From contig OX344749.2 in the NCBI GenBank assembly GCA_947034885.2, forward strand, positions 25,807,501-25,871,500: DNA of 64,000 bases. The letters are read 5' to 3'. Positions 20,179 to 57,313 of the stretch are shown here, in pieces (position 1 is the stretch's first letter; every line of letters begins with the position of its first letter). The notes beneath the pieces were generated by a model. That model had not been told where the DNA came from and made no database searches. It saw only the letters and a list, made by a program, of their open reading frames with translations. Both the position numbers and the translations under genes were made by a program. This DNA comes from Thuidium tamariscinum (Eukaryota > Streptophyta > Bryopsida > Hypnales > Thuidiaceae).

Positions 20179-20182
20179 TTAA

Positions 20183-29405: not shown

Positions 29406-30127
29406 CGGTGATTGCAAGAAACACCTGTCCTATTTTGTGTCACAAGTCGCATTCTAATTTTTTTTTTGGCCATAACTTTTGTGTTTTAGCTCCAATTGAC
29501 TCAAGATTTGTAGGGAAGGTATTCATAAATATCATAAACCTTCCATAATTTTTTCATAATTTTCAAAAATAGTTTACTATCCAAAAATAGACCCCAATTG
29601 GATGTCACACTTGGTAGTTTAGGGGTTTTCAATACCTGAGCTATACCTTTTTTTAATGATTTTAACATGAAATTTGGATGAGACGGTCTTCTAATAGACT
29701 TCCAGCTTTCCAGGGAAGGATTTAAAAAAAAAGTTAATTTTGTGAGGTGTAGAGGTCTACAAAGTGAGCTCCCTTCTGCTTGTATTTTGAAACATATAAA
29801 ATATTATTTTGGTGGATTTTTTTTGAATGACCATCTCCATAAAGTTGTTGCAAATGGACACTTTTTATTTTTTGAAAATATCTATTTTTACTATTTTTCC
29901 CTAATTAAAACATGAAGGTATGTATTTTCTGGAGGTTTGGCACTTTTCAAGTTCTCCTACTTAGAGAATTTTTCTATCCATTTCCTTCAGTGAAAACCTT
30001 CATCTTAGAGGTATATACACTATTCATATTTTTCAAATTTTTTTCAAATTAATTTTCTAATTTTAAAGTACTCCCGAAAAAATCAGCCAAACGCAACAAA
30101 TAGGACAGGTGTTTCTTGCAATCACCC
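29406..30127 (+). mobile_element. 722-bp inverted-terminal element, copy A, 4-bp target duplication
   Basis: Termini CGGTGATTGCAAGAAACACC and the complement of GGGTGATTGCAAGAAACACC, each continuing TGTCCTAT. Flanked by AACT (29402-29405, 30128-30131). No open frame of note. Same length as, and about 90% similar by eye to, copy B at 54740, which lies in reverse orientation. A diverged third copy is at 56584. Family not recognised. Confidence 0.88.
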
Positions 30128-30276
30128 AACTATAAAAAACAAATGATTGAATTCATATGTAAAAATACGGTCATTTTAATTACTAAAATGAAGGTAAATA
30201 GCCCTATGTTAAATACCCTCTAAACTCACGTGTATGCTTAAAATTACAAGGAGTGATCTCCCCGAGGTTGTTGCCC

Positions 30277-31396
30277 TTGTCAAGCCATCATTTACCAAAA
30301 AATAAAAATAAAAATAAAAATTAGAGGTCCTAAAATATTTTTAAAAATTAATAATATGGCACTCTCTCAACCAAATAGGATTCTTGCGATTTTGTGTTCC
30401 CGCACCAGTTTCCGCGTTTTTAGACTTTGAGAACTTGCAATCTTCCAGAGGCCTCAAATTTTTCCTAACGTAGGTATAAATGATAAAGAGACAATACAAT
30501 GTACACTTATTGCTCATGAGTTGGCATTCCCTAGAAATAAAGATTCTTCTCATATCCATTATGATGCTAAAATATGTGTAACGTGGTCCAATCAGCACTC
30601 TAAAGAATTTTCTTGAAATAAATATGTTCAAAAAGTGTACCTTAGCTCTTACATATACACCAACAGAGATACAAATACCAAAATGACTTATAAAATGAAA
30701 TATAGATACCATCTCTTGTAAAAAAATTTAATACAATTCACCAAATTGTTATCCGCACTTCAATTGGTACACTCAAGTTTTTGAATAGCATTGAACTTCA
30801 AAAGTTATTACAATTTCATCCATTTGTTGTGAAAAGGCCTTGCCCACCCCAAATCAACCATGGACATTAATGGGTTAATTTTATAAGGCCTAAGCAACAA
30901 CGCTACCCTCCATTGCGGGAAGAAAAGTACCATAAGAGGATTTTGCAGGACGCTAAGAGATTGTTTCAATCTCGTTCCCCAATCTGTGAACTAATCACTA
31001 TTGGTTAGATTTTTTTTTTAAATTAAAAATTTTTTTAATAGAAATTTTAGAAATATTAAAATATTAAAATATATTTTTAAAAATATTTTAAAAATATTTG
31101 CTTATATGGAAAATTTCAATGAGTTCCCATAGTCTAGAAACTCACGGTCTATAAACTAGCTAAAAATCCTCTTATGCATACTAGCACAGGTAGTGAAGCC
31201 CAAGTAATGAGGTCCCCATCCAAAGGGAGATTAGAAATGTATGTTATAGTGTCTTTATACACCCTCATCACTTTGTTCTCTAGCCATTCCAATTCATGTA
31301 GTCGACACATTTTTGACCTATCGCGTTTGCTTCCCTCGCTCACAACCCTTCCCTTCATCAAGTCGCCTATAATTTGCAAAGAGGAATGCCCCTACC
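30277..31396. other. AT-rich intergenic DNA with the right part of the split repeat
   Basis: 30277-30470 is the continuation of the dispersed repeat from 28011. The rest is AT-rich with A/T homopolymers and no supported gene. Confidence 0.45.
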
Positions 31397-31690
31397 ATTA
31401 GAGGGGATTTGAGGGGTCCAAAGGGCTGTTTTGGGATTGTTCCCAAAATTGGTCTGGAAACTGCTGGCCGTTGTTAGGCTAGCATTTATCCAAAAAAAAA
31501 AAAAATTGGGGTAATGAAATATAAAAAAAAGTCCCCCCTAAAAAAAATTCTCAAAAAAAATAAAATTTAATGACATGGCACTCTCTCGACCACGTAGGAT
31601 TCCTACAAAATTGCGTTCCTGTGGCAGTTTCCACGTTTTTGGACCCTAGAAACTTGTGGTCTCCTAGAGGCCTCAAATACACCATCTAAT
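31397..31690. repeat. Uninterrupted copy of the split dispersed repeat
   Basis: Matches 28011-28069 plus 30267-30470: the shared blocks are AGAGGGGATTTGAGGG, AAAGGGC-GTTT, GGCACTCTCTC, TAGGATTC, GCAGTTTCC-CGTTTTT and AGAGGCCTCAAAT, in order. It shows the pre-insertion form of the Mutator-like element's target. Confidence 0.7.
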
Positions 31691-31769
31691 TTGCACAAAA
31701 GTAGGTTTTATTGTTTTGTAAACTTGAATAGATTGTTTCCACCATTTAGATCACTCTTTGTCAACAAGT

Positions 31770-31789
31770 ATGTATATATATATATATAA
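31770..31789. repeat. (TA)n microsatellite
   Basis: A short alternating TA run within AT-rich DNA. Confidence 0.7.
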
Positions 31790-32227
31790 AATTTTAAATG
31801 ATATTTTCACCCATTCAGTGGACATCACAAACACCTTCAACTTTGGCATTATTATTTTGAATACATTTTATCCCTATTGCTATTTTTGGGTCTAATCCGT
31901 TCTCCATGTTGTCCTCTTCTAAGAATTAAAAAAAATCCTTCAATCCAATATATATTCATCTTGCAACACTCCTTGGCAATTCTTGAAGTTCTAAAAAAAC
32001 GCATGATTTGGCAGCTTAGTACTTTGAAAACTAGGTCAATCTAATATACCGTCACAAAAAATTTGGAGGAAATATAAATTGGTACATGGCACTTGCAAAG
32101 TGGAATTGCAATTAATATAGTTAAATCTTTACTTGTTGGCTTTAACTATTTATTAAAAAAAAAATTTGTTGAACTCTCTAACAAGGGGGCTTTAGTTTGA
32201 AAAATCAAATGGTCATTTGGAAATTAA

Positions 32228-32443
32228 CCCCTAAGCACCCAATGCATAGTTATCCAAATCTAAAATTTACTCCAATAAAATTGTCACCCATAACAAGATT
32301 TACAAAAACTAGCTATATCAATTGGTAGTAGAGACAAGGTTGAATCTCCAAGTGAAAGGATAAATGATTTGATTGCACTATAAAAAAGATCTTTGTAGTC
32401 AATGAAGGAGTCTTTCAATTTGGAGTGTTTGGGCACTCAAGGA
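32228..32443. mobile_element. TTAA-flanked MITE, about 216 bp
   Basis: Left end CCCCTAAGCACCCAA; right end, reverse-complemented, TCCTTGAGTGCCCAAA. Flanked by TTAA on both sides (32224-32227, 32444-32447). The termini match imperfectly, so it is an older or distant member of the TTAA group. Confidence 0.55.
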
Positions 32444-32447
32444 TTAA

Positions 32448-33129
32448 CTCTTAATCTATTGACAATAACAAGGACGTTGTCGGGTAGGGAGGAGCGCGCT
32501 TAGAGAACACACAGGGTGTCTGGCTGCACGTTGATGAGTGAAGTTGGGTAAGTCTTCAAAACTCAAATCTTCTCTTGATCTTCACTTGAATCTTTGCTTG
32601 GATTTTCACTTGTTCTTTCGTTGGCCTATCCTGTGGCTGACTCTATAGGGCCAAGGGTAAAACGGGACGACCAACACGAGTGACCGTCCGGATGATGGGC
32701 CTCTAAACTTCAAACCCACGATGACCTTTCATCACTAGGAACAATATAAAATATCGACCATGTGGGCCATTAACCCCACTTTGTCGCCACAAACACAAAA
32801 TGGAGCGCTTACTAGATAACCACGGCTCGCAACAGTTTTATAATGCAGAAATTGAATTTTCAACTAGCCTCCAAAACTGGCTGGGAATAACAGAAATGAA
32901 AACAAGCCACAAGCCACAACACAAGGCTAGGTCCTCGGCATGTACAGCCTTCGAATCTTCAAGTCTTCAAAAGAACCCAAAGAACCCCAAAGAACTTCAA
33001 AGAACCCCAAAGAACACTAGAGAATTTCTCCTCTTACTAGTTGCGATCTTCTTTCTAGTGCTACAGATGGCTTAAGTCTCCAAATACTTAGTGTAATAGC
33101 ATTTTGAAAAGATAACTTTACAAAGAAAG
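32448..33129. other. Mixed-composition non-coding DNA
   Basis: Moderately GC-rich patch without a convincing gene. A short imperfect tandem of AAAGAACCCC units lies at about 32967-33016. Confidence 0.4.
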
Positions 33130-33890: not shown

Positions 33891-36800
33891 CTACATCAAC
33901 CCAAAATTCGGCTTCAAAACCCCATAACCCTCACACACAAAACTCCGTCTCCACACACTAAGAAAAAACTCCCCTAAAAAAACTCTCTAAATCCCCTCAA
34001 AAGGAGGAAGAAGATCACTCACCAATCCTACTAGACCCTAAGTTAAGTGAGAGATGCCCAAATGGATCTCCAAACAACTATTGGCTAAAAGAAAAGAACA
34101 AGAACATAAGTTCAAGTTTACTCTCTAAAGCCAATGAAACTCAAAGGTCAAACTAAAAAATAAACTAATTCTAACTCATAATCTTATCTTTTAAACATAT
34201 AGATAAAATATAAGATTAAAATTAGATATTAAACTTCAACTAAACTAAATGGAGGTAAAAACTAAAGTCAAAGAAGAATCCTAAGACTCTAAATCTCATG
34301 ACTTCATAAAAACCCTCTAGTTCAACATTTTAGTGTTGAACTTTAAACCTAAATATAGATTCCAGAACTTGAATTCTAAAATCTAATTTAAGTCCAAAAT
34401 ACGTATACATTTTAAATAGTGTACATATTTACATCACAACAACGTTTTGTATTCAATAAATGACAAAAAATCTTTCTATGTAGGATATAAGTGCTACCAT
34501 TCATCTCTCAAAGTTTTGTATTAAGAGAAGAGATCTTCTACAATACTTTGACTTCCAATCATTGTTTTTTGGGGTTTTTTAACCCTGAAGCGCTTTGATG
34601 TCTATATTCTAGACGATGAACAAAGGCCTTCAAGGCATTGTTTCATCCAATTAACTTCTAATTCATCAAATGTAATACTTGAATCTAGAGAAAACAACCT
34701 TCTTTAAAGACCAAATTCATTAGATTCTAGTAAATGATATATTTGTACAAAACTATAAGCGAAAATGTGCAAAAATTCAAAAAAGGATTGAGATGTTTTA
34801 GGGTTAAACCAATCATTTTCAAGGTCATAAGTTTGTCCTTTAAGGGATTAAAAAAATATAATTGTTCCTCAAGGGCAGCCTAAGGAATCTATCATAGTAT
34901 TTCTAACAATAGCTCATGGTACAATCACAACTCTACATATAGTATTGCTCTAAACTCAAACTCTCTCTCTCAAATAAGAAGTGTCCTCTACTTAAGCACT
35001 TGTTGATTCAGAGAGTGTTCTCTTAGAAGTAGTGAAAATTTTAAAGCACTTCAATTGAGTTTCATGCCTACAAGGAGGGGGGAAATGCAACAATATTTGA
35101 AAATCTTAAGGCATTCACAACAACTTCCATAATTCTTGTTATTTCCTAGACAAAAGAGTTTAAGGGACACAAAATGGCTTCACCATTTTAAGGGCTAATA
35201 GTCTAGAGAGACCACTTTTTGATACAATATGGATTCTTTTTAATGTATTTGATAAAGAGGGACCATAGCTTAAGTACATGTTAGTGAAAAAAATTTGTCT
35301 TCATGTAAAATTCAATCCAATGAAAATTAGAACTCTCAATTTGGATCATTATTGCACCTCCTCTAGGTAGGAGAAGCTTTAAAATGGTCACATATTCTAT
35401 TTAGTGTTATATTAGACTTGTCTTGTAAGCACAAAACTTGCATTGATTTCATAGAAATCAACTAATTTGTAGATGGAAGAAAAATACGAATAGAAATTTT
35501 TTTAGCGCATTCTATTAATTTAGTGCATAATATGAAATAAGAGAGTTTGTACACAATCAATGGGCTTGTGTGTGATTCAAGATGGAAAGCTTAATTAAAT
35601 GCCTAAACCTCTCCTAGTGTATAGTCATGGCATCATGTACTAAAAGAGGTTCTACTTGTAATGTAGTAATCATTAGTGTATTAGAGGTGATGTTATCAAA
35701 GTGAGTTTAGTTCAAAAAGTACACTTAAATCATGCTTAAAGACCCTTACTAATGCCATTCTTAATTTCAATAAGAACATAATTACATACTTAATGCAAAG
35801 CATCATGTCACAAATTCACTTGTTACTAGTTTTATTACATTTTCATTGACACAATTCTCACCTATTCATTCTTGCTAAACTGTAAAAACATACTAAGCTT
35901 ATCAATGGATGCAATGAGGAAACTAATCCTTTGCCAATTGAACCTTACAATTTGTAATTGTTTGAAAGATAACTCATATGAGTTCTTTTTAAGGGATTTC
36001 GCAATGAAATACCTTTTATGTAAAAAAGGTTTTTTCATACCTAGATCCCTTTCCACTTGTGATCAAGTCAATGCACCTATTTAGGGTGGATTTTGGATAC
36101 CTTTAACCCTTAAAGGATGGACCTATAACCATTGATTTCAAGCTTCATTGCTCATTACTCAGTTTGTTGCCATTTTGGAACTAGATATGTATGAAAAATT
36201 TTATTTTTATTTTTCAAAGATGAAATTACATGTCTTCTCTACTTCACAAAAAATTTAAATTTTTTTGAAGCAAATTAATTTTTATGAGAGTTTTCAAAGA
36301 AAAAGTGAAGAAAAAAATCATATCAAATAGAAATTTATCTCGGAAAATCTGAAATTTTCACCATGTGTGTACATTATAGTGACAAACATCATGGTGTAAA
36401 CTCAATTTCTGTGTCCTTATATAATTAGAATGCAATAGACATTGAAAATACATCCAAAGTTCAAACCAAAATAAAATATTCAATATTATGAGTTTTTACA
36501 AAATTCCAACTAGAGTAGAAACTAGAGTAGAAAAAATTCATTTCATTAATTGGGCTCAAACTCAAAAAATATCATTTTTGTGGAGAAATTTCAGATTTAC
36601 TCAATTTCTCAAAATACTCTAAATTGGCATATTTGCCATTGGTTTTTTGAACTACATGAACAAAACATTTTAGTTAGACTCTTGGTTAGACTAATAATTC
36701 AATTGGATACTCTTTGTAACTCAACATGAAAGGTCAATAAAAAAAAGTGAATGAAAAAACTACTTCTAATCTCTTCTTATGACCCTAGATTATCATCCAA

Positions 36801-39386: not shown

Positions 39387-41289
39387 GAAAATTGTTGCTC
39401 ACGCAAGGTACAGGCCAAGCGAAGTGAACAGATCTCAAGGTTACTTGGCAATTAATCCAGACGCTCCGAAGTTCATATCCTGGATGATGAAAAGAGTGCT
39501 TCCGGGGAATACTTTTTTTCCATGTAACTTCGCATTCATACTAAGTAATATTGGAATCTTTAAGAGAAAACCTTCCTTCATAATCTTTGCTTGGTAAGTA
39601 ATCAACGTTTCAAGGTACAGTATAAAGACGACCAATCTTTTATAGATGGTAATGTGAAAACTGTGATTCAGATGGGGCGAAATCTCGTATCACCATGACC
39701 AGTGAAAGAAATTTCATGCTTCGGTCAAAAAATGAACAAAATGGAACACAAGACAGTACCTACTGAAACTGCAATGAAAATCGTGCGGCCCAATTTGGTC
39801 TTGTTGGTCTCTTTTTGTGATTAAACAAAAGGTGAGTGCGACGAATCTTTCCTGATAATGATAAAAATTGCACATAAACTAGACACTTGTTGCAATAAAC
39901 CTCTCATTCTCAATAGATTCGGCAATTGCAGTACAGTACATTGAATTCAACCCTAATTTACATTTCATTTTGTTATTTTAAGACGGACGAAAGATGGCTC
40001 AATTCGAGGTTAATCCACCAATTACATCAGTAAAGATAATACGCAGTTCCTTGCTACTAAAACAATATCAACGTCTCTGGAAACGTGGTGAACTTCACTC
40101 TGAAACAACTTGCTCAAGAAATTCCTACACAAATCCTCGATTGAAGATACACAATGTTCAGAAGAAACAAAAGACTACTTGCTTGCTGCAAAAGCAAAAG
40201 AGCATCGCAAGCCAAAAGTACCTCGCCCAGTAAACAAATTGATAGCGCCGGTCACTCGATGCGAGCTTGAGCAGCGTCGGAGAGTTGAAGTAGGAGCTGG
40301 AGTGCGTGGTGGCCAAGAAAGCTTCAGGGCGGGAGAAGTCTATGTGGAAGCATACGTGGAAGGATATGGGTGAGAGCCAATGGAAGTGAAATGACCTGGC
40401 TTGGGTAAGTAATGTCGGTACACTAAAATGGTATATAGTGTTGGTAACACTAATTATGAAGCACAACATTAAATGTCAACAATCTTGTGAATGTTACCAA
40501 CACAAAATGTCAACATAGATATTATTTGTCAACTATTGGATATAAACATTTTACAAAATTACATAGTTAGTGTTATATCTTATTTCATCAAATTGTTATG
40601 AAAAAAATACAAACCTAAATTTATGAAATGAGGGGTGATGAATTCAAGACAAAATGAAAATCTTTTGAAATCATTTAAGAGTAGGTGTCATAAAGTTCAT
40701 GTACCACTATTAGTAACATAACTCTAACTACCATTATTAGTGTAGTCAACTCAACCTTAAAACTATTTAAGTTGTTCATAGCTTTATAAACAATAAAGAA
40801 AAGAAAACACACTTTGGATTTTTGAAATTTTTTCTAAATTCAAAAATCATAGCAATTTGAAATTTTTACTTGAAAATTCTAGGGTGGATTGTAATTATCC
40901 CAATCCATGTTTGAAGATTAGTTTGACATCATTTTCATCAATATTATTATTATTATTTCAAATCTCATTTTTATATGCAATTGGGAGGAATAAAAAATAT
41001 TTTTTTATTGTACAAAAAAAAACCTCAGAGCAATTCCATTGTGTAGATTGATAAATCCATAAAGGATAAGCTTGCTAAATTCAACAACATAACAGTTTTG
41101 GATAGGTATATGTAATTGGAGATTTCCATGTTTTGGATCCAAAATTTAAAATAAAGTAGAGATAAGTAATATTTTTCATATATACTAAAAATTAGGACAT
41201 TTAGAAATATTATTCATCAGTTGTGGTCTAATAAGTTATTTTTTTTGGTATATAGGCAATTCAAGTAGATATTAAAAAAAAATTCCTAA
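39387..41289. other. Upstream flank of the His/Pro-rich gene and AT-rich DNA
   Basis: 39.4-40.4 kb is moderately GC-rich and could hold leader exons or promoter of the minus-strand gene. No frame on either strand is convincing. From 40.5 kb on the DNA is AT-rich and featureless. Confidence 0.35.
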
Positions 41290-44200
41290 ACAAAAATTTG
41301 AAATTGGTTGTAGAGATTTATGTACACGTGAAAAGCTTTCAATTATTCCATATTTATCAATGAAATGAAAATTATAAGGGATTTTAGTTTGTAAGCATTT
41401 ATGGATTCTATACTCCAAAATAAATTTCAAAGTCCTTTATTTAACTCAATTTTCAATATTTTTTTGGAAAAGAAAACTAGGATTCAAATTGTTCATTGTA
41501 ACATTGCAACCATTGGGATTAGAATTTTTCAATTTCATAACTAGATTATCACTAATAATTTAATATTTTGAATCATTCTCTACTTTCTATTTACTATTTT
41601 TTATCTAATATATTTTCTAATTCCAAATGCTAGGGAATTTTTCAAGCATATAGTCCAACTTGCCTTGAAGAATTAATTGACAGAAGCACTACTAACATGA
41701 ATTATTTTCATGCAAATGTGAGCTTGTGAAGTGTAGCTACATGTTTATATGCATGGCTCCAAAAGGGATTTTCATCACTTCAAACACTAATATCTCGCAA
41801 TTGCTATGTAGTGGAAATTTTTGAAATTTTTTCTACATGTTTTCGATTCAACATATTATAACATCTTATATTTATATGGATCTAAAAAAGATTTTTTTTC
41901 TAACTTTGGTTCTTATACTAAAAATGACCATTTGCAGGCTTAAAAATATCGTTGAGGAACTTAGAGGGCTAACTATTCAAAAACATTTGAAACACTTAAT
42001 TTTAAATAATGAAGCTAGTTATAAGAAGTTTTATTTTGTGAGTAATGAATAATTGATAAACAATTATTTATTGTTGAAGTTTTTAATCTAAATATTTTCA
42101 CAACCAAACTAATAAATTTCAAATTTTCAAAAAATTTATTAGTCATTTTGGCCTTTCTTTCATTATGTCTCACTACAAAAAAAAAACAGTGAATAAATGA
42201 GTGGAGGAAATGACTGTAAAGCAAGCTTTTCTTTTTTGGCGATTTGGTGCAAAATTGCACCAAATTTTTTGGCTTGGCACCAAGCCTATAGGAAAAAATT
42301 AGTAAAATTTTGGATGAAATCGCCAAATAATGGATGAAAATATAATGATACATATGTATTACATGCTAATATGATATTTTCTATCCAATATATAGATGAA
42401 TGTTGAGATTTAGAGCTCCACAATAAAATGAAATATCGCCACTTTGGCAATTCACAAGAAATGAAAAAAAAACCTGCTGTAAAGTGACTATGTGTCCGGA
42501 ACAACTGAAAAATGTTTGGGAATTCCATAATTGCACCAATACTAGGGCATCAATATCAGAACAGTCATTTGGTTATCATTTTTCTAAACCGTAGACAAGT
42601 GTGCAATGAAGGTAGACTTTCATCTACGGTTTTCAATTCTCCCTAGCAATGAGATCTAACCTTCTACTTTGTAGGGTTTTTTTAAAGATGAATACAAAAG
42701 GTTTTTTTTTATTAGACTTTCTTACATGAATTTTCAACCTAATTTACAATATATTGACTAAAATACATAAGTTATAGGACTTATGTGTTTTTTCCTAAAA
42801 GTACCAAAACAAAAACTTGCAATTTAAGAAGATCTAAAAAGATCTACATTTTGAAGTTTAGATACATAGAACTTGCAATCAATGGAGAAAACACTCTAAA
42901 ATTTTGGAAGTATGTACATGAATAAGCTGTCTAAAAGATATACAATTGATTTTGAAAAAAAATGAAAATGAAGATTTTAGCCTTGCTTTGCAGACAAGCT
43001 CTTTGAAAAATTTAGAACCTCTAACCATCAAAGAACTTTAAGGTTAATTGAAAGAAGAATTTTATTCTAAAAATAAAGGAAAAAACTATGTAAACGTCAA
43101 AAATGGCATCATAAATAGCAGCACTACATTCCAAACTATCAATAATTGTACAACCAAGCATGCCTACCTACAATGGGCAACAATTACATATGAGTATAGT
43201 TTCTAAATATAGTTTCTAATTTATTTTAAAAAAATTTGACTTGCAACTAAAAGGGATTATAGTGTACTTTTGCATGCATTATTTGAACACTATACTCAAA
43301 TTCAACACTACGTTCTATTCAACTCTTTTGTTTGATTATGTACATTTGAACCCTTAAAGTTCCACTTGACAATGCTTTCACCAAAAATGTTCCAAAATTG
43401 TCATTTCTACTACGAGTATCAAACTTAAGATTTTTTTTTGACACACATGACCTCAAGATCTTGATGAAAACTAGTTTCAGAAGGTGTGCAAAAAACTTTA
43501 AAACATTCCTGTGATCCACCTCATTGATTGCCAAATATTAATGTTTGAATTGACAAAAATCCTCTTTTGGGCCATGCAAATAAATAAGAAGCTACACTCT
43601 ACAAGCTCACATTTGCATGAAAATTATTCATGTAAGTGGTGCTTCTTTGTATTCATTCTTCAAGGCAAGTTGGCTATGCACTTGAAAATTCCCGATCATT
43701 TGGAATTGTGAAACATATTGGAAAAAAATAGTAAGTAGAAAGTAAAGAATGATTCAAAATACTAAATTATCAATGATAATTTAGTTATGAAATTGAAAAA
43801 TTCCAATCCCAATGGTTGCAATGTTACAATAAACAATCTAAATCCTAGTGTTTTTTTCCAAAAAAACATTGAAAATTGAGTTAAATAAAGGATTTCAAAG
43901 TTTATTTGGGGGTATAGAATCCATAAAATAATGCCCTTAATCAAAAACCATCCTAATCAAAATTTTGAAATTGGCTGTTGTGTAGATTTATGTATACGTG
44001 AAAAGCTTTGAATTATTCCATATTTATCAATGAGATAGTGAAAAAAAAAGACCCTGGCTGGCAGTTTGGTTGCAAGTCCTTGTCCTCTTACAAACAAGTT
44101 TGCAATAATCCTTGTGCCTCAGCTGAAAAAAAATGAATACTGTAGGTTTGCCTTCCAAAAAATTAACGTGTGTAAATCTATACCTTAAGACAGGTAGTTT

Positions 44201-45310
44201 GTTTTGTTTGTTTGTCACGATGAGATCTCCCGGACCGTGCGTCCCCCGGTCGTGTGCTTAGTAATGTTAGAAAGCTCTCAGCAAGGAGGGGTGCATGGGC
44301 TTGGTTTCGTGGTGTTTGGACTCATGATGAAAAAGTTATTGAATTTCAAAGTTTTAATGAATTAAAAAACTGGAAAATATCTTTTACTTTGGATTTGATT
44401 GTGGCAATGGCACAAGGCACTCTAGTTAATGTGTAAATATGTAGAATATAAGGTAAATGAGCTCATTGTGGACAAAATCAAAGTGGTTTTGCATAGTTAA
44501 GTTCTCAAATATACACATCTCATATTAATTTTGCCCACATTGACCTTGCTCCCATTTGGCCGACAATAGGCTCACTTATCTAAATGTAACCCTTGTAAGG
44601 CAAACATTCACACATTGGTAGAAGATGTATTAGCTAGTGTAACCCAATTTCTAGATTGAATATGAGTCTTTTTGCCCATTGTAATCCTCCCAAGTTCTAT
44701 TCCAACTATAATAACAAAGTTTCTTAGCCCTTAACCCCTAAAGCCCTGACTATGTTTTCATCAAAAAATACTCCAAAATTGCCATTTCTAATACAAATGC
44801 AATTTTCTTTAAACACATTTTCGAATCATGTAACCGTAGGATCTTGTAGTAAGGTGGTTTGTAAGCATGTGGAAAAAATTTCAGAATTTTCACCGTGTAG
44901 ATTGCAAGATATAAGCATTTGAATTGACAAAAATTATTTTTTTTATCCCTGCGAAAATCCGGACAGCTGCACTTCACAAGGTCACATTTGTGTGAAAAAA
45001 ATTCAAAATGTAGTTACTCTTTGAATTCATACTCCAATGCAAGTTGGCTACATTCTCAAAAAATTTCAAACCATTTGGAATTTTACAACATATAGGAAAA
45101 AATAAGTAAGTAGAAAGAAGTAAAAAATGAGCCCAAATATTATATTGTGAACATTTTATTCATGAAATTGAAAATTTTCAATCCCAATAGTTAAAATGTT
45201 GTAATAAACAATCTACACCTTCTGTTTTTATTTTTTTTCAAAAATATGAAAAATTGAATTAAATGAAGAATTTCAAACTTTTTTTGTACGGTAGAGATTC
45301 TGTAATTAGC
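41290..45310. repeat. Three related dispersed repeats in mixed orientation
   Basis: A block of about 380 bp at 41400-41780 matches the reverse complement of 43560-43925, and a third diverged copy lies in the latter's orientation at about 44950-45300. Shared blocks include CAAGCTCACATTTGCATGAA, CAAGTTGGCTA and CAATCCCAATGGTTGCAATG (with variants). A separate segment with GTGAAAAGCTTT at about 41310-41370 and 43960-44030 is in direct orientation. CTTAACCCCTAAAGCCCTG at 44728 marks a TTAA-type terminus. Confidence 0.65.
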
Positions 45311-45490
45311 CGCAAACTACCCCAAACTCAAAATCTTCATAACTTTTGACTCATTGATCGGAATGGATTGATTCAAAGCTTCACATGTCTGTATAAACCT
45401 AAAGAACCAATTTGAAATTTCACTTTTTAAAAAAAAGTTTTTTTGAAGAAGTTTTTTTGGCTGCCCGGGCTGCCCGCCGAGTAAAGTTTG
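45311..45490. repeat. Dispersed repeat block, copy 1
   Basis: Shares TTCATAACTTTTGACTCATT, GGAATG(G)ATTGATTCAAA and TTTGAAGAAGTTTTTTTGGC blocks with 46330-46490 and 49850-49990. Confidence 0.65.
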
Positions 45491-46249
45491 AGAATTCGCA
45501 AGTGTAATTAAAATTAAATTCTTTTTGAAAAAAAGTGACTTTGCTATGAATTTTTGAAGTGCTAAGTGCATCATGCTGTAAAAAAGTCTGTAGACTACTT
45601 CAAAACTAGCAAAATCTTAATTGATAATGCTCATCTTACTACCTTAAGTAGTCACAATATTTTCTATCATGGAAGGTCTAAAAATTCAATTTTTACAATA
45701 AATTTTGCATTAAAAAGTTGGAAGTTCCTAATGAGGTCACTAACCACTTCATTACTGTCTTGTAAGATAATAAGATATTGATTGTAGCCCAAATCTCACA
45801 TTCTAAAAATAACCACAATGGTGTCATTTTCTACTTGTTCACTATGGGTCATTTGAACACAATAGGCTATTCTAGTTTATATAGAGTATGAAGGAAGTTG
45901 CAATCAAACTTTTCTTAAAATTATGAGATCATATTAGATATGTTACTCAATGAGTTTGAAGGTGTGCAACCAAGTGTAAGGTTGTATATGAAGTTTTGAA
46001 GGTTCAAAGTTTTTGAATGGATTTTGAATAGGTTTTAAGATGTCAAATTTTAGTAAGACATTCAAACCTTTTGTTTTGAGGTGCAAAAAATTACTACCTT
46101 TTTAGGAATATAGTGCTTATTTTACTCCTCAAACTCTTTCATGCTTAGAGGTCTAAAACAACTTCAAAAGGCTAAACTCCAAAGCAAAATTTAAATGTTC
46201 ATCTCTAATTATTTTTTAACAAATACCACTATTGGATACTTTAGTTAAT

Positions 46250-46966
46250 CCCTAAAATCCCTAAATTGCATTTCTTAGCAACATAGCTATTTGTTTTTTA
46301 GATATGATATTCAAAGAATTCGTACATGCGTGCAAACTAAAACTCTTCATAACTTTCATCTCATTAATCAAAATGGAATGATTCAAAGCTTTTCATGTAT
46401 ATATAAATCTAAAGTATTTATTTCAAATTTTTATTTCTTAAAAAATTGATTTTTAGAGAATTTTTTGACCTACCTAGGTTGCCTATTAAGGAATGAAAAT
46501 CACATATTATACAAAAACTTTTTAACCATGTAGTCAATAGTTATGAAAATTGTATAGACTTAAAGCTACTCCTTGGATACATGTATTAAATTTTCAAAGA
46601 AAAATAAAATATAACTCCATTTGCAGTGAGCTTTCCAAAATTGCCATGCTGCCAAAAAAAATGCAGTTTTTGCATTCAAGGCATTAATTTGTTAGTGTAT
46701 ATATATCTATAAACTAATATCATATTTTATTTTCTAAAAAAAAATTCTTCAAATTTGCCTCTGATCCAAAAGAAATTACATATAATTTAATAAACTTTTA
46801 ACCATGCAATAAAAATTTATGAAAATTAAAAGCTTTTGTATGTTTAAAGCTATTCATTGACTACATATTGTAAAAAAGTTTTTAACTCCAAAAATAAAAA
46901 TATCATTGGAAATGGATGATTGAAAATGCTTTGTTCCCAAAAGAATGTTACTTGGACCTTTAGGGA
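46250..46966. mobile_element. TTAA-flanked element, 717 bp
   Basis: Left end TCCCTAAAATCCC, right end (complement) TCCCTAAAGGTCC; TTAA on both sides (46246-46249, 46967-46970). The interior includes copy 2 of the CTTCATAACTTT repeat block. Non-coding. Confidence 0.6.
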
Positions 46967-46970
46967 TTAA

Positions 46971-48654
46971 TCGACATGTAAGAGAGAAAATTTTATACTA
47001 TGATTAGAGCGCAAATGTTCAATCGTAGGCAAATACAAAGAAAATCTCAAGAAATAAATCTTCTAATTCTTTTCTAATATCTATATCTTGAGTTAGGTTT
47101 CTATTTATTTATTTTTATTTGATAGAGTAATATGTAAAAAATCTTGAGTCCCTTAGCTATGTTCTTCATACTATTGTAAAGCGGGTTGTAAAGCTTTCTA
47201 CAAGGAAAGGTGCACACTTTGTTTTGTGTTTTTTGGAATTGTGGTGTGAAATTTGGATTTTTGAATTATTTTAAAATTAAAATATTGAGTTAAATATTTT
47301 TTTAGATTAGAAAAACATGACTTTCACATTGCATGTCCAAATGACTCAGAACAAAGTCCTTGCATTCCTTTATGCATACAAGATATTGAATTTTAAAAAA
47401 AATAAAAAATAAAAATTTATTTTATCTTTTATTTTCATTGTAGCAACACTCATAGGGTACACCACCAATGTATCCATGTCTACATGGAATGTTTTGAATC
47501 ATTCCATTTAAATTAAAGATGTGAAATATATGAACATTCTTGTTTTGCAGGCAATGAAGGCATTTTGAAGATGTACAAAACTCCAAATCAAATTCATAGA
47601 GTTTTAAAAATTTGTAACCTAATTCAAATCCAATCCTAAAACCACCCCTTGCAAATCCTTACCTCAAATATGGAACCATTATAATTTATGCAATATAAAT
47701 TATACTTTTGGATACACTTGTTTTTCTAAAATTTAGAAAATCCATACTAATACTAAAAGAGAATCTAAAAAAGTCTTTTAACCATTAGCAAGATCCACCA
47801 AAAATTTATACAAGTTAATAATAGAAAAAAATGCTCAATCACTTATTTAGATGCAATTAGGAGTAGTTGTCTAATACATCAAATTGCTATAGTCTCTGAA
47901 GGTCTTGCCTTAAATTTCATAATTGATTGTTGTGTTTGAACCTTGCATGCAATGAATATGGATTGACTTTTTATTCTAATTAGCTAGAAGGACAAAAAGA
48001 TCTTTTCTTTGCTAAGTCCCTTCACCACATAGTAAATTTCTCACCAAATTCAAAACTAACAGCATAATTTGTACATTGCAAATTGTAAACAAATGGTATT
48101 AAATTTTGAAGAAAATTAAATTAAAAAAAGGAAGTTAAAAAAATTTAGAAGCAATGAAGGACAATCATAGTTAGAAGACTCTAGAAGTTGCTTTAATTTA
48201 GAATATAACCATAGGACCTTGAAGTTCTCTTTGAAAATGAACATCTCAAAAATATTCAAATTGCTTGATCATGTAGATTTATTAGTAGATATGTAATTTG
48301 AAGTTTATTTGGGTCAACAAAGAAACAAGGCATTACACTTCAAAAGAGCATATCTTATTGAGATTTTCTTGATATGAAGACCTTTAGGTGTTCAATAAAA
48401 GACAAAAGAGTAGAGATCACTCATCTAAAATTTGATTTCATAACATTTTGGTTATTTTATAAACTAGGGTGGAGCTTGCCATAGATGGTGGTGACTAAAA
48501 TGAGAGTTGTATTTGTAAAAGAAACAAAGATGAGTTTTTTCTTTGAACTTGTTGGATTTGCCTTTTTGAAGTGGGCAACAATCACATTTTTTGGCTACCT
48601 TTCAATCCATGCCCAAATACATGACTCAACTTCCAAAATTCCATAAGGTGGAGT
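46971..48654. other. AT-rich intergenic DNA
   Basis: No gene, RNA or ordered repeat that I can support. Confidence 0.45.
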
Positions 48655-48658
48655 TTAA

Positions 48659-50165
48659 CCCCTAAAGCCTTGAGCTTTGTTTTTTGGCAACATAAGTTTT
48701 TTTGGCAGCTCACTACGAATGGAGTTTTTGTTTTTTTTCTTTGAAATTTCTACATAAGATGTGCCCAAGGAGTGTCTTTAGGGCCCAAAATTTTTCATAA
48801 CTTTTGACTTTGTGGTTAAAAAGTTATGGCATGATATGTTGTTTTCTTTACTTGGAGGGCATCCTAGGCAGCTGAAAAAACTTCTTTAACAAAGACTCCA
48901 TACCTACACTGGGAACTTTAAGCGCTTGAGCCGGGGTTAAATTGCAATGGCTTAGCCTAGATTTCAGCCCCCTTTAACACTAAGTGAAAAAAGTGGGGGG
49001 GCTAAACCAATTAGCCCCATTTTGGTACTACAAGTCGAGGCTATATTTATTGTTCAGCTAGGGCTAAATCCATTTAGCTAATCGTTTTTATTAGATTTTT
49101 TCCATTTTGAATATTTTCACTTTTTGGATGGATGTTTGACTTTCATGAATTTCGGGATATTTCGGAATTTCACTGGATGATATTAAGATAGTTGGCCTTG
49201 TAGTGAATCTAGGTAAATGTTCGACTGAAAGTCACTCTGTCTTTCTCAAGCTGAGCAAGTAGAACTGCAAAAAATAAAACAAACACACACTATGCAAGAG
49301 TTAGTTAGATATAAACATACAAAAGAAGTGTCTCATTGCAAACGCTTGAATGAAGACAAAAAGACATGATTGTGCATAAACTAGAATCTCTCACCGGAAT
49401 GCTCACTAGAATCTCTTCAAATTCAGTACCACGATCTCAAATTCTGGCCAGCTTGAAGAAGCCATAAACCGTAACTCACCAAACTCACAACTCTTCCACA
49501 CGAACTGAGAAACTCTTCTGCACAAACTCACAAACTCTTCTGCACAAACTCTTCCGCACCAAACTTCTACACAAACCGGAAATACCAAACTTTTCCGCAC
49601 AAGAAAGTGAGGTTTGGGGCACAACGTCTGTGCCCTTTCACTACGGACTTCTCTCTATAGTTTGGCGGTTTGAAACAGTGAAAAGTCGTCCTCCTATTGC
49701 CACAACTTTAGTTTGAACGAACGAGCGATTCACCAACACCGATTTTGGAGGGAACTAGTCTAGCCAGCGTTACCCTGCATGGTTTAGCCCCCACAGACTT
49801 TGAAACGTGGGGAGCTAAACGATCCAAAGTTCCTAGTGCTACCCGCACACTAAAATTCCTCATAACTTTTGACTCATTAATCCAAATGGAATGATTCAAA
49901 CCCAAAAAATCAATTTGGAATTTCACTTTTCAAAAAAAGTTTGTTTAAAGAAGTTTTTTCAGCTGCCTAGATTGCCCTCCAAGTAAAGAAAACAACATAT
50001 CATTTTTAACCACAAAGTCAAAAGTAATGAAAATTGTTGGGCCTTAAAGCTACTCCTCGGGCACATCTTCTATAAAAATTTCAAAAATCAAAACAAAAAC
50101 TCCATTCGTAGTGAGCTACTGAAAAAACTTATGTTGCCAAAAAATGTAGCTTAGGGCTTTAGGGG
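48659..50165. mobile_element. TTAA-flanked foldback element with a nested CACTA insertion
   Basis: Ends CCCCTAAAGCCTTGAGCT and the complement of CCCCTAAAGCCCTAAGCT, flanked by TTAA (48655-48658, 50166-50169). The arms, about 48659-48890 and 49935-50165, are long inverted repeats, for example TCACTACGAATGGAGTTTTTG against its complement. Removing the nested insertion 48907-49838 and its duplicated CTA leaves about 570 bp. Confidence 0.8.
48907..49838. mobile_element. CACTA-type element, 932 bp (nested)
   Basis: Termini CACTGGGAACTTT and, complemented, CACTAGGAACTTT. Flanked by CTA on both sides (48904-48906, 49839-49841), a 3-bp target duplication. The interior is GC-richer, with repeated GGGCTAAA and TTTAGCCCC motifs near both ends that could serve as subterminal binding sites. 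No transposase, so non-autonomous. Confidence 0.8.
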
Positions 50166-50169
50166 TTAA

Positions 50170-50490
50170 CTTGGAATTTGATAAACTACCCTAAACTCAC
50201 TCACTCAAAATCTCACAAAAAGTTCTATTTGTGCATAGATTCCCATGCATCGACCTTTGGTGGATAACATAATAAGTTCATGTTCCTTCTATACTCCCAA
50301 ATTAAGACAAAGTCTATTTAATTTGGTTTTGTACATTATAGACTAGCTACAACTCAAACTCATACAAGTGAGTCCAAAAAGGGCCTTTCACACCCCATAG
50401 GGTCAAAGGATGGTGAAGCAATAGTCTACACCTCAAATTTCAATGCATTTTGTCCCCTCCCTTTCTCAAGTTTTAGAATTTGTAATTAGT
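50170..50490. other. AT-rich spacer
   Basis: Nothing recognisable. Confidence 0.4.
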
Positions 50491-51300
50491 TTGAATTTGG
50501 TCAAGAATTGATTGTTGGGTGAAAGGTCCAAGTGAAGAACGGATCTAACGTTCTTTGTCCACTGACTTCCTCGATTTCTTAGCCAGGCTCTCACTTCGAA
50601 AATCGTGCTTCGTTTCGAGTGCTGCATCTCGATGCGATGCAAAAGCTTCCCTGAATTCCGATCCTGTGCAGCAAGCGGGGCAGCAAGTTCCAGGTACGGT
50701 GAATTCGAAGCCATGCCCCAGGAGGTGTAGCTGGAGGCCACTCGATCGATCAGGCAAGTGTACGCGAAGCGAGGGCCACTAACTTCACTCGATCAAGATA
50801 AGAACGCTTCCAAATTCCAATCCATTGATCGATCTTCCTCGGCTCCTCCTCGCCCACATCGGCTGCAGCGCAGTGACTGAGAGACAGAGAGACTAGCTGA
50901 GCTTGGATCGATGTGCCTATGGGAATATGCAGGCTGTCGGTCGTCAGCTCCGCGCACAACGCGCAGTTTTGCCGGCAGGGCCGCAGGCAGACATTGCAGG
51001 CAGCCGCAGGGTCAGGCCAGGCCAGCCGCAGCCAGAGCCCATCATCCCCGCCGTCTGAAGAGACATTTGCAGGCTTTTTGCCTTTTGCAAATTTATGTGA
51101 AGTTGGGAACTCAGTGGTGCAGCCAGAATGTAAGCCAGGGAGCAGTGGTGACGGTGATTTGTGGGTGCAGGCTCAAGTTACTGATCTCTGGGTGCAGTCA
51201 GTCGGAACCCCATGAGAGGCGGGCAGTTCCCGTGGGTGCCGCAGCAGAGGGCCGATTGCAGCTTCGTTAGTGATCGACGAGATTACGGTGAGCCTGTTCA
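50491..51300. other. Unexplained GC-rich island
   Basis: About 800 bp with composition like the known gene starts in this window. It contains stretches such as CAGCCGCAG repeats and several short frames on both strands (up to 119 codons), none with recognisable motifs. It could be the first exon or promoter of a non-coding transcript, or a gene remnant. No known microRNA sequence was seen in it. Confidence 0.4.
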
Positions 51301-51526
51301 GTTGCAAGAATTACTGCAGTCATTGAGGAGATGGATGTCATTAGGGTTTAGTACAAGCAAATGAATGAACCGGATTAGGTAATTATATTTTTTCTTTTCT
51401 TTTATGAAATAAATGTGTTGAAGAATACACTGCAAGGAATTCTATCAAGAGGAAGGACTTCTTTGTTGCCAAGTTTTGAACCCACAACCACACCGTTCAG
51501 TTTTGAGTACCTCTCCACCATCATCT

Positions 51527-51784
51527 AAGGTAGGTATACCCAAAAGCGCCACTTATTCATACTGTGCCTAGTTCCTATTATTAGGTAGTTCAGATTTTTA
51601 TGCAGTCTTGTTCGCAAGTGAAAGCATGTTCCAACGCACCAAAGAACGCAAGATTTGGATATCATATGCATAAGTTATTAACGGTTAAAGTTTGTTTCAG
51701 AAAGCGCCATCTACAGCATGTGAACATGACTGATTTTGGAAATGTATGTGCACTGTAGATGGCGCTTTTGGGTGTACCTACCTT
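51527..51784. mobile_element. 258-bp MITE with GGTAGGTATACCC termini
   Basis: Left end AAGGTAGGTATACCCAAAAG continuing CGCCA; the right end is its complement with one change. An inner inverted repeat, GCGCCATCTACAG and its complement, lies at about 51705-51768. The pattern GGTA-GT-TACC-...-GCGCC resembles the ends of the protease-bearing element at 22800. Confidence 0.75.
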
Positions 51785-52480
51785 GGTAGTTCATTTCAAA
51801 TTGTCTTCTTCTCCTTTTAATGCTACAATTATTTTGGGGGAAAAAATGAATGACAAATTGGGTGGATTAGATTGCAGTGAAGAATTTTGAAAGGGTGAGA
51901 CCTATCAATCTATCACCAAGGTAGTCAACCAAAAATGATTTGATTACTAAACAAATACTTAGGTACATTCTTCATTTCTACACCAACCTTGAAAGTTATC
52001 TATTGGGAACTTCTTGGCCTCAATGTCTTTTATTATATATGAGATGCAAGATTTCATTGACAAGATGGATGTCATTTGGATTTAGCAACGACATATGGAT
52101 ACAAAATCTTGTGTAGATGAGAAGAATTACAAATGAAATTATGCCACAAATTGCATTTAACATAAGGTACATCAAATCAAAATAAAGACTTGAAGTTTAG
52201 AGATATTTAAAGGAAGGTTTGATTTGGCACCTAAATATCAAAATTGAATTTTACATGTTGAATTCTTAAGGATTCACATCACTTCACACTACTCACAAGA
52301 TGACATGTGCAATACTTTTTTTAATACAAAAATAACTTAATTTCTACTAAATCTAATCTTTGTGCGATAGAAGATGGAGATCCTAATTGTGGTATGATTC
52401 AAAAATTATCCTATTTATATCACTATAGATGAGTAAGATCGGAGATCCTTAAATGGATCATCTAATGGCTGAAATTGAAT
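51785..52480. other. AT-rich intergenic DNA
   Basis: No gene or ordered repeat seen. Confidence 0.4.
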
Positions 52481-52663
52481 TTTGGAGAGGTGAAACACCT
52501 TGAAATATTTTTCACTAAATTTTCCTTATAAGACAAGTGGAATTGACATTTAATTCAATTTGTCTCATATTTTTTGGAGAGGTGAAACACCTTGAAATAT
52601 TTTCAGTAAATTTTCCTTACAAGACAAGTGGAATTGACATCTAATTCAATTTGTTTCATATTT
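52481..52663. repeat. Recent tandem duplication, unit 91-92 bp
   Basis: Units 52481-52572 and 52573-52663 both begin TTTGGAGAGGTGAAACACCT and differ at only a few positions; a third start TTTGGAG follows at 52664. A diverged relative lies at about 56465-56530. Confidence 0.85.
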
Positions 52664-53829
52664 TTTGGAGCTTGGTGGAATTAGTTATAAAATTTTGAAG
52701 TTGAAGTGGCATAGGGCTCTAAAATGGAGTATTTTCTAAAATGTACACAATTTTACATTGTTGAAGGCTGTAAAAATAGGATACATTTACAAATAGGATA
52801 CATTTAAGAAGGTGATTCATTTTTAGAACTTGCTCTGGTTTAGAACCTCCTACCGTAGTTAGTATCTATTTTAGACTGTCAAACATAAGCTACTAGTTTA
52901 TAGTGGCTCAATAAACAATACAAGTAGGCTAATACTAGAGTCTTTGATCTTATTGTTACATTAAGTGAAGGACTTTTTCTACAAATTTTAGACTATAGCT
53001 AGAATGGCAATCATTGATATTGTTTTGTAGTTGAATTTGGATAAAAAGTTGATCAATTGGATGAATGAACATTATTCAATGTCGATGAAGATATTGGCAA
53101 TATGACAATCAAATGTTTTTTGAATTTTTTTTAAGGATATTTGACCATCCAATATTTCTTTTTTGCCACCTAAAAAATGGATGGTTAGATGTGAGTATGG
53201 AAGTGGAGCATGGGACTTGAAAAATGTAATTTCACTTGTACAAAACCATCACCTATTTATATTTCTAAGGAGTTCCTTACCAACATCTTAACAATAAATA
53301 AATATTGTAGTACCTTATATGTAGTTCTACCTTAGTGCAAATATGAAATAGACCATAGATCATTGGTATTACATGTTTACACATTTCAAGATTCAACAAT
53401 ATAAATCCCAAGATGAAATAGTCAAAAACAATGGATGTAAGATTTAAGACATTGTAGTCTTCTAAAGTTACTTTGAACTATTTCAAAGAAGTTTATAGAA
53501 TATAGCTTGGCCATTAGAATTCCAAGTATATTAATTTATCATCAATAGAAATGGCATACTTTTGACTCAAGTGCAAATTCAACTTAGACCCTCACTCACT
53601 AAAAGAAAATAAAGGATTTTGTGACAACAAAAAACAATTAATATTTGAATTGCATCGGATATTTGCTATTATGAGGCCTCTAGTCATTATAAACAAGTCA
53701 CATGCCAAAATGTAGTTGCAGAGCTAAATGGGGTTGTTTCTCATCTAATAGCTTACTTGAAACTTGGTTGGCAAGCTTCTTTCATATAGTTGGTAACGTT
53801 GTATTTGTTACCACAACTCTATCAATAAA
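52664..53829. other. AT-rich intergenic DNA
   Basis: No gene or ordered repeat seen. Confidence 0.4.
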
Positions 53830-53972
53830 TTTTGCAACTTATTGGTAGCTCATTTGCAACTAATATACTACTTATTTGCAACTCATTTGTAACTTCATTG
53901 CAACTCATCTATGACTTATTTGCAATTCATTTTTGCCTTCATTGCGACTTATTTGTACCTTCATTGTAACTT
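53830..53972. repeat. Degenerate minisatellite, unit about 16-18 bp
   Basis: Variants of CATTTGCAACTTATTTGCAA recur about eight times. A few scattered copies continue near 54415-54480. Confidence 0.7.
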
Positions 53973-54173
53973 TTAGATTTTTAGATTTTGTATTTTTAAT
54001 TTCAATGATTTTTAGATTTTAAAATTATTTGAAGTTTAGAGTTTTTTGAGATCTTGTAGATTTTAGAAATCTACAAATTGTAGAAGTTGTAGAATTTTAT
54101 TAAGATATTTTATCACATGAAAGTAAAATAAGATTCTTAAGTTATATCAATTGTTAAAAGTACCATTAGATTT

Positions 54174-54200
54174 TTGCACGGTGTTTCTTGCAACGACCCC
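54174..54200. mobile_element. Isolated terminus of the 4-bp-TSD element family
   Basis: The complement reads GGGGTCGTTGCAAGAAACAC then CGTGCAA, matching the family termini. No partner terminus was found within about 750 bp to the left, so it is probably a truncated copy. Confidence 0.55.
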
Positions 54201-54739
54201 AAAATGCAATTAAGACATGACTATTTTCCAATTTATAGTCGCATTTACAATCTAGTTGTTTCCTAGTCATTTTTTCCAACTATAGATTCACACAATGCAT
54301 TCCAAATAACACAAATTTGTCCACATAGCAATCATGATGGATAATGGATGGTGTATAGCTCACATTCATTTTAAATTTGAACTTTATCACAACTCTCATA
54401 ATCTAGCACTTCATTTTGCAACTACTTTGCAACTAAAAAAATTTATATACTTCATTCTACAGCTACTTTGCAACTAAAACAATGCAATAATGATTTAACA
54501 CAAGGATGTATATTAGTGACTTTAGAGTTGGTACAAATAGAGAGGTCTAAAGTCATTGGATAGTTGTACATGACGCTTAGTCGCATTTTAGTTGGTTGTG
54601 TCACACATGTTTTCAACTTCTAGTGGCTAGAATTACATTCTACTATTTATTGGCCAATTCTTCCTTTAATTCCTAAATATAAATTGCAATATTCATTTAT
54701 GAATTTAGTTTTCACAATATAAAAAAAATTGTTTGACAA

Positions 54740-55461
54740 GGGTGATTGCAAGAAACACCTACCGATTTTGTTGCGTTTGGCTGATTTTTTCGGGAGTACT
54801 TTAAAAATAGAAAATTAATTTGAAAAAAATATGAAAAATATGAATAGTGTATATACCTCTAAGATGAAGGTTTTCACCAAAGGAAATGGCTAGAAAAATT
54901 CTCTAAGTAGGAGAACTTGAAAAATGCCAAACCTCCAAAAAATACATACCTTCATGTTTTAATTAGGGAAAAATAGTAAAAATAGATATTTTCAAAAAAT
55001 AAAAAGTGTACATTTTCAACAACTTTATGGAGATGGTCATTCACAAAAAACCCCACCAAAATAGTATTTTATATGTTTCAAAATACAAGCAGAAGGGAGC
55101 TCACTTTGTAGACCTCCACACCACATAAAATTAATTATTTTTTAAAATCCTTCCCTGGAGAGCTAGAAGTCTATTAGAAGACCATCTCATCCAAATTTCA
55201 TCTTAAGATCATTAAAAAAAGGTACTCCATAGTACTAGAAACCCCTAAACTACCAAGTGTGACATCCAATCGGGGTCTATTTTTGGATAGTAAAATATTT
55301 TTGAAAATTATGGAAAAATTATGGAAGGTTTATGATAGTTATGAGTACCTTCCCTACAAATCTTGAGCCAATCAGAGCCAAAACACAAAAGTTATGGCCA
55401 AAAAACAGATCAGCACACGTAGTGTGACACAAAATAGGACAGGTGTTTCTTGCAATCACCC
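54740..55461 (-). mobile_element. 722-bp inverted-terminal element, copy B, 4-bp target duplication
   Basis: Termini GGGTGATTGCAAGAAACACC at both ends, inverted; flanked by ACAA (54736-54739, 55462-55465). Same length as copy A and in the opposite orientation. The interior has stop codons in all frames. Confidence 0.9.
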
Positions 55462-55465
55462 ACAA

Positions 55466-55727
55466 TTGAGTTATTTGTAAAGTCCCCCCCCTTTGGACAT
55501 GACTTTTTTTGAAGTTGAGAAGGCAACTATAGTTGAAGCGTCAAACTTTTTTGCAAGATACTTATGTCACATGACTTCAAAAGTGGGGACCAAACTTTTT
55601 TAGGCACCATTTTGATGAAAAAATAAGTTTCATACCCACTTTTATTTAAACTTTTTTAACTCAACCAGCTTTTTCACAAAACTCATGGGTTTAAATCCCG
55701 GTTTAGTGTACTTTACAAATAACTCAA
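55466..55727. mobile_element. 262-bp MITE with TTGAGTTATTTGTAAAGT termini
   Basis: A perfect 18-bp inverted repeat bounds the element. It starts immediately after the right target duplication of copy B. Non-coding; the target duplication is not clear. Confidence 0.65.
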
Positions 55728-56583
55728 ATGTTAAATTTGTTTACTTGAACAATCTAACAATTTTCATTATTGTATTTCAATCCCATCTTAGAGCTATTAA
55801 CGATTTAATTTTTCTTTCTATCTTAGACCTTCTTCTATTTAATGATCTTTAAAAGAATAAAAACCTAGTTTAAGAAAAAATTTAATCCTAAATTCAATCT
55901 CAATTCTTCAAAATACATTTTTTTTAATTCAAATTTTGCAATACTAAAAAATTCAAAAATGGTGGTCAAGTCATCTAAAATTGCAACTTGCCTAGTGTTT
56001 AAAAAACCATTTTTTTCCAACTTTGAATAGATATATCTTCCACTTTGTATGATCAAATTTCATGAAATTTACCACATGATTTTAGACAAATGAAGTACAA
56101 GATTCCATGGTTAGGCTCCAAAAAGATATATTTTTCTTACAATGTCCTTGGATGAACTTTGTAGAAATGGAAATTTTGAGTGGTTTTTGATTTAAAATGG
56201 ACTTGGCCCTGTTTAGATTAAAAAAATTTATATAGAAAGAAATTGGATAGAAAAAAATAAATTAGTAATAGTTGTAAGATTCTAGCCAATTGAATTACTT
56301 TTTGAACTTAGGAGTTAGGTTAGGATAAATTTTGTTTTCAAGGATTGCTTGAAACAATGATAATATAAACCTACAAAAATCCCAAATGTCCCTTGAAAGA
56401 ACCTTCAAACTTTAGGGGTTAAGAGCTAGAAATTAGTTTGGACAAATTAGACTTTTGAAACCTTTTTCAATAAAATTCCCTTAAAAGATGAATGGAATTT
56501 GCACCTAACTCAAGTTGTTTCATATTCTTTAAGAGCTTTGCAAAGGTAGTCATGAATTTTTGAAGTAGAAATAGAGTGGTTGC
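55728..56583. other. AT-rich intergenic DNA
   Basis: No gene or RNA supported. Holds the diverged relative of the 52.5-kb repeat unit near 56465-56530. Confidence 0.4.
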
Positions 56584-57313
56584 AGGTGATTGCAAGAAAC
56601 ACTTGTCCTTTTCTTTGTCCCCTTGACCTTTAGGAGGTAGTTTTTTGCTCATAACTTTTGCATCTTTTGGTCATTTGACTTGAAACTTGAATTTAAGGTG
56701 CCTACAAAAGTTTTACATTTTGTGTAATTTTTTCAAATTTTTCAAAATTAATTTACTATTTTTAAACTGCGCCCGATTGGGTGTCTACTTTGGCCATTTT
56801 GGGGGGTTTTAGTCCTATTTTTGACCCAAAAATGAAAATTTTGAGCTGAAAATTGGCATGCAAGGACCTCACTTAAAGTTACACAAGACCATAAAGATAT
56901 TTTTTGAAAATACTATACTCTTCAACCTCCACAAGTTGTCAAAGTGGATGACTTTGCGCAAGTGTAGAGAATAGAATTAATTTTTTCCAAAGATGAAATT
57001 TATTGGAAAAGAAAGACCTTTACTTGGAAAAAAAAATATTTTTCATTTGAATTTTTTGAATTTTTTTTACTATTTTTACCAAATTAGTGAAAAAAGAGCT
57101 ATTTTCATTGTATTTTCTATTGTCTATAACATTTAGAGAAAAAAATTCTTAGGTCTGAATTTCAAGAGACATGATATTTTCATTGCTCTTCAAATTATCC
57201 ATATTTTTTTCAATTTAAAATTTTTTATTTCAAAGGGTCGTGTAGGACTCACAAGACTCACTAATTTTGAGCCATTTTGAGACAAAACCGGTAAGTGTTT
57301 TTTGGAACGACCC
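56584..57313. mobile_element. 730-bp inverted-terminal element, copy C, diverged
   Basis: Left terminus AGGTGATTGCAAGAAACACT; right terminus, complemented, GGGTCGTTCCAAAAAACACT. Flanked by TTGC on both sides (56580-56583, 57314-57317). Interior landmarks of copies A and B (CATAACTTTTG near the end, similar spacing) are kept but the sequence is strongly diverged. Confidence 0.75.

Follow-up and report, generated by a model that had tools for sequence, protein, structure and literature searches.

The 64,000-nucleotide window analyzed here (Thuidium tamariscinum, contig OX344749.2, positions 25,807,501 to 25,871,500) contains three copies of an element that belong to a high-copy, apparently non-coding family of DNA transposons resembling miniature inverted-repeat transposable elements (MITEs). 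The inverted termini of the family read GGGTGATTGCAAGAAACAC, and a non-autonomous DNA transposon producing 4-bp target-site duplications is the explanation retained, with a probability of about 0.93. The evidence originates from the window copies, a search of the whole assembly, the flanks of 69 distinct copies and a set of related empty sites.

The first window copy (subfamily A, 722 bp) occupies positions 29406-30127 of the plus strand between two AACT duplications (29402-29405 and 30128-30131) and displays perfect inverted ends of 29 bp (29407-29435 and 30098-30126). The second, also of subfamily A and 722 bp long, lies in the opposite orientation at 54740-55461 (minus strand), flanked by ACAA (54736-54739 and 55462-55465), and is 92.2% identical to the first. 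The third, a 730-bp member of subfamily B, is found on the plus strand at 56584-57313 between two TTGC duplications (56580-56583 and 57314-57317). The terminus GGTGATTGCAAGAAACAC is exact at five of these six ends; the right end of copy 3 has diverged to GGTCGTTCCAAAAAACAC, with 4 mismatches in 18. Only about 200-240 bp of copy 3 could be aligned to copies 1 and 2 using BLASTN, at 68% identity. The initial annotation of the window had described three copies of exactly these positions and lengths, with common inverted termini and a different perfect 4-bp flank each, two of them highly alike and the third strongly diverged, and all of this was recovered.

The same annotation had proposed a genome search with the 20-base terminus followed by a check of the flanks of the copies collected, an inconsistent duplication being the outcome that would speak against the family. 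The assembly containing the window (363.2 Mb in 19 contigs) was searched for this purpose. The 20-base form GGTGATTGCAAGAAACACYT returned 2,283 + 2,341 exact matches, 4,624 in total, and its reversed-pattern control none. When up to 3 mismatches were allowed in the 18-mer GGTGATTGCAAGAAACAC, 13,309 + 13,314 = 26,623 matches were obtained, against 89 + 113 = 202 for the reversed control; the window itself, shuffled 50 times in 3-base blocks, yielded a mean of 0.12 terminus matches at the same tolerance. Provided that both ends are kept in each copy, these figures suggest about 13,200 copies that together occupy 2.6% of the genome (about 9.5 Mb), a rough estimate given the damaged and overlapping copies.

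The flanks were studied on a sample of 69 copies. Two facing ends were accepted as a copy when neither had more than 4 mismatches, when they lay 640-800 bp apart with no rival partner, and when 20 bp or more of flanking sequence was available; identical copies were merged. Pairs outside this distance range, pairs with several partners, copies less than 20 bp from the end of a locus and identical duplicates were excluded, together with all copies in loci L039-L068 and L111-L114. The copies originate from the best matches to copy 1 (37), the 30 exact termini listed first for contig C1 (20), exact pairs (8), other regions (2) and the window (2, window copy 1 being counted under L001). The 37 and the 8 were drawn from 38 retrieved places, out of 40 full-length best matches to copy 1, and from 10 retrieved exact-end pairs, respectively. 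Divergence and duplication rates are consequently biased by the sampling toward young, intact copies, the 20 copies from C1 being less selected. Lengths range from 676 to 756 bp with a median of 723 bp, a distribution partly selected by the collection range. The sole longer coherent copy seen, at positions 442-1521 of locus L029, is a 1,080-bp fold-back, 84.5% self-complementary over its whole length, with standard ends and an ATCT/ATCT duplication.

A perfect 4-bp duplication is present in 60 of the 69 copies, compared to a mean of 1.31 upon random re-pairing of the flanks (200 shuffles); no copy shows, read in the 4-bp frame, a perfect duplication of 5-9 bp. The 4-bp duplication prevails in every source, with 34 copies out of the 37 retrieved as best matches to copy 1, 16 out of 20 from the C1 termini, 6 out of 8 from exact pairs, and both copies from other regions as well as both from the window. 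The duplicated letters are 75% A+T without a fixed motif. The 4-bp frame is that in which one further base is counted as element at each end; this outermost base belongs to the element, since it is G in 63 of the 69 copies at each end, and the ends therefore read GGGTGATTGCAAG..., directly abutting the duplication. In shifted frames, 27 copies appear to carry 5-bp and 4 copies 6-bp duplications, because the outer G/C can equal the next flanking base by chance.

Insertion was further examined by joining the flanks of each copy, minus the element and one duplicate, and comparing the product with all the sequence retrieved. Cross-junction matches were obtained for 13 copies and six of the alignments were inspected. 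The window holds two of these empty sites. Positions 20178-20454 (minus strand) are related to the site of a subfamily B copy in L011 and align to it across the junction over 277 ungapped bp at 90% identity, with a single ACTA facing ACTT/ACTT at the filled site. Positions 36233-36315 (minus strand) match the site of the L099 copy over 83 bp at 86% with two gaps away from the junction, a single AAAA facing AAAA/AAAA. The L069 copy at 1362-2087 (TCAT/TCAT) is nested within a further copy of the clade; an uninterrupted counterpart of its site is found in L023 (TGAT, 84%, gaps elsewhere). The remaining inspected cases are weaker: L005 and L071 are gapped at or near the target, and the duplicates of L100 are unequal (AGAA, AAAA). 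The other seven matches include window copy 3 against L111/L112 at 69%. The related empty sites show insertion accompanied by duplication of the target.

Grouping of the 69 copies placed 47 with copy 1 (more than 84% identity over at least 500 bp), 8 with copy 3 and 14 with neither. The mean Kimura two-parameter (K2P) distance to the majority sequence is 0.034 in subfamily A, a value leaning low by sampling, and 0.058 in subfamily B, while the distance from A to B reaches about 0.73 in the full multiple alignment, whose deeper part is uncertain. The 722-bp copies and the 730-bp copy belong to two subfamilies that separated long ago and share their ends, in agreement with the long period of activity put forward in the initial annotation. 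Among 31 aligned copies, column agreement averages 0.97 over the first 20 consensus columns and 0.92 in the block from column 701 on, compared to 0.61-0.87 in between, and one set of ends may have served several separately amplified miniature families. One copy per subfamily (L002 and window copy 3) was translated: no stop-free stretch exceeds 72 codons and each of the six frames contains 8-19 stops, both copies being non-coding. As an observation apart, the loci L005 (C6:10424812) and L006 (C6:10371673) lie about 53 kb from each other, each with an 89% similar second copy at equal distance, an arrangement that is probably a segmental duplication.

Two points weigh against a non-autonomous transposon with 4-bp duplications. 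The duplication is imperfect in 9 of the 69 copies, 7 being off by one base and 2 by three bases, and two of the exceptions, L030 and L037, are clear. In addition, neither an autonomous copy nor a transposase was found in the approximately 300 kb of genome sequence read, and the longer transposase-encoding copy with the same ends called for by the initial annotation did not emerge from this limited amount. The search for such a copy covered three intervals of 2.4-7.3 kb delimited by exact facing termini. Two of them, C1:7545600-7548400 (L069) and C1:9515585-9517995 (L115), instead contain copies of about 720 bp that adjoin or are nested in one another. The third, C1:825978-833274 (L014, L070 and L015), encloses several other termini as well as open frames resembling a host gene by eye and was rejected as one element; CATAA is common to its two outer flanks, which match over 5 bp when read in the usual frame, and a single element with later insertions is unlikely there. 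The L029 fold-back was also rejected as a longer coding element on account of its full-length self-complementarity.

The transposase mobilizing the non-coding copies would act in trans, from a gene located elsewhere. A DDE-type enzyme may bind the conserved ends and excise the element, which would then be joined to the target at two strand cuts separated by 4 bp, and repair of the gaps would generate the 4-bp duplication. The ends are probably the recognition site, since these 18 bp are almost unchanged between subfamilies whose interiors differ greatly.

Several origins can be considered for this enzyme. Sola is the known plant superfamily that best fits the duplication length, and membership is a possibility that we hold tentatively, at somewhat less than even odds. 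Excerpts of the literature record 4-bp duplications in plants for Sola (PMC10741241), list Sola1 for Physcomitrella (PMC9033089), and hence for at least one moss, and describe dictyostelid Sola2 elements with short inverted ends and AT-rich 4-bp duplications (PMC3627910), the last feature recalling the A+T content measured here. Sola is however defined by its DDD transposase, whereas the present family is known from non-coding copies and is likened to it by duplication length. The profile PF07592, which we take to be a possible Sola relative, gave 0 matches, and its 14 controls were equally silent, hence the search was uninformative. Ginger elements, the other suggestion of the initial annotation, also produce 4-bp duplications. 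Their ends are nevertheless of the TG...CA form with inverted repeats of 40-270 bp in the available extract of PMC10741241, as opposed to GGG...CCC and 29 bp in copy 1, and an element of this type is highly improbable.

A PIF/Harbinger-like (IS5-related) transposase making an unusual 4-bp duplication is a quite unlikely motor, even though candidates abound. Profile PF13359 (DDE_Tnp_4, PIF/Harbinger) gave 150 scored matches out of 331 candidates, many in open frames of 400-500 aa, and the matches listed lie on contigs C1-C11; these transposases are not only numerous but diverse. Profile PF01609 returned 67 matches, those compared by eye coinciding with PF13359 places, and PF10551 (Mutator-type transposases) 33. 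Some bacterial IS5 relatives are also known for 4-bp duplications, and the ends of the present family begin with GGGT, as do those of a Harbinger element bounded in L113/L114 (741-5962). That 5.2-kb element is a DNA transposon as well, but it encodes its own DDE_Tnp_4 transposase, ends in GGGTACGTTCGCACC and is flanked by a TAA duplication. On account of this duplication and of these ends, at least one of the Harbinger families in this genome is of the ordinary type. Moreover, the terminus was absent at up to 3 mismatches from all of the 30 best DDE_Tnp_4 loci read out of the 150 matches, with about 1.5 kb examined on each side and many ends lying beyond. A terminus-like match at 4-5 mismatches occurs in 11 of the 30, 8 of which are one near-identical family with the match inside the repeat. 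The local Harbingers are probably not the motor. A multi-copy repeat of more than 6.6 kb (L058-L065 and L111/L112), whose copies are 98-99.9% identical and carry a DDE_Tnp_4 transposase in an open frame of 458 aa, seems to have been active recently; in L111/L112 it was bounded on one side only.

The transposase could alternatively come from a superfamily not described in plants, or from no described one. This origin is unlikely, if less so than a Harbinger-like enzyme. It draws on the lack of a linked transposase, on a 4-bp duplication lying outside the five main superfamilies of plant MITEs, as far as the excerpt of PMC12550479 indicates, and on the literature: the 12-base terminus occurs on either strand in the full text of a single open-licence paper, unrelated by its title and abstract, and thus in no relevant one. 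Against it, the missing autonomous copy is weak evidence when set beside the amount of genome read, and Sola offers a ready alternative. There is accordingly only a small chance that GGGTGATTGCAAGAAACAC ends together with 4-bp duplications are the signature of a plant DNA transposon superfamily not yet described, or of an unrecognized deep branch of one. Were this the case, its transposase would have been multiplying miniature elements for a long time, to a total of about 13,000 copies and perhaps 2-3% of the genome.

The non-autonomous family retained here compares closely with plant MITEs such as Tourist and Stowaway, which likewise are non-coding elements shorter than 800 bp, reach very high copy numbers, carry inverted ends, duplicate their target and insert into one another. 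The defining MITE features that were examined are present: short length with inverted ends and a duplication, high copy number and, in the two copies translated, no transposase of their own. The difference resides in the duplication. Tourist is associated with 3 bp, PIF/Harbinger with a 3-bp TWA, hAT with 8 bp and CACTA with 2-3 bp. Stowaway and Tc1-mariner duplicate TA and Mutator 7-12 bp according to the consulted portion of PMC10741241. The family differs from all of these by its varied 4-bp duplication. The initial annotation had taken this length to exclude the five common plant superfamilies and to evoke Sola or Ginger; the length does argue against these five, and against the Harbinger family bounded in this genome, but it does not by itself make the elements Sola or Ginger, membership in Sola remaining unproven and Ginger being disfavoured by its ends.

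The excerpted text of PMC12550479 assigns plant MITEs mainly to five superfamilies and names one special group besides. Judged by titles and abstract openings, the open-licence literature names no family such as the present one, which is best regarded as a new family of the MITE kind, the chance of a deeper novelty being modest; newness is judged here from the literature and not from repeat catalogues. None of the five main superfamilies normally makes 4-bp duplications, and an abundant family of this type could be mis-sorted or left unclassified by MITE pipelines. The transposase behind it constitutes a concrete target, and the nested and empty sites provide a ready system for dating its activity.

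The window contains a few additional features. A lone terminus, reported near 54174-54200 in the initial annotation, is indeed present at 54181..54199 on the minus strand with 2 mismatches. Within 40001-54300 no facing partner with 4 or fewer mismatches was found, the best candidate having 5, and the 800 bp on its interior side showed no similarity in the retrieved sequence other than to itself; the terminus is probably a relic. An old dispersed repeat lies beside it at 53596-54131, with 54 matches including the window (40 scored of 167 candidates), most of them at 65-83% identity and nearly all confined to that stretch. It was rejected as an extension of the element, as it ends about 50 bp short of the terminus. 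Just upstream of copy 1, a 112-bp inverted repeat rich in AAAATGCAGAAAAAAC-like units spans 28934-29204, its arms being 87% complementary and separated by a 47-nt spacer. Finally, pieces of a cytokinin-receptor-like histidine kinase gene extend over 6590-14576 (plus strand), with a CHASE domain at 6590-7243 and a CRE1-type (AHK4/CRE1) receiver domain at 14046-14576.

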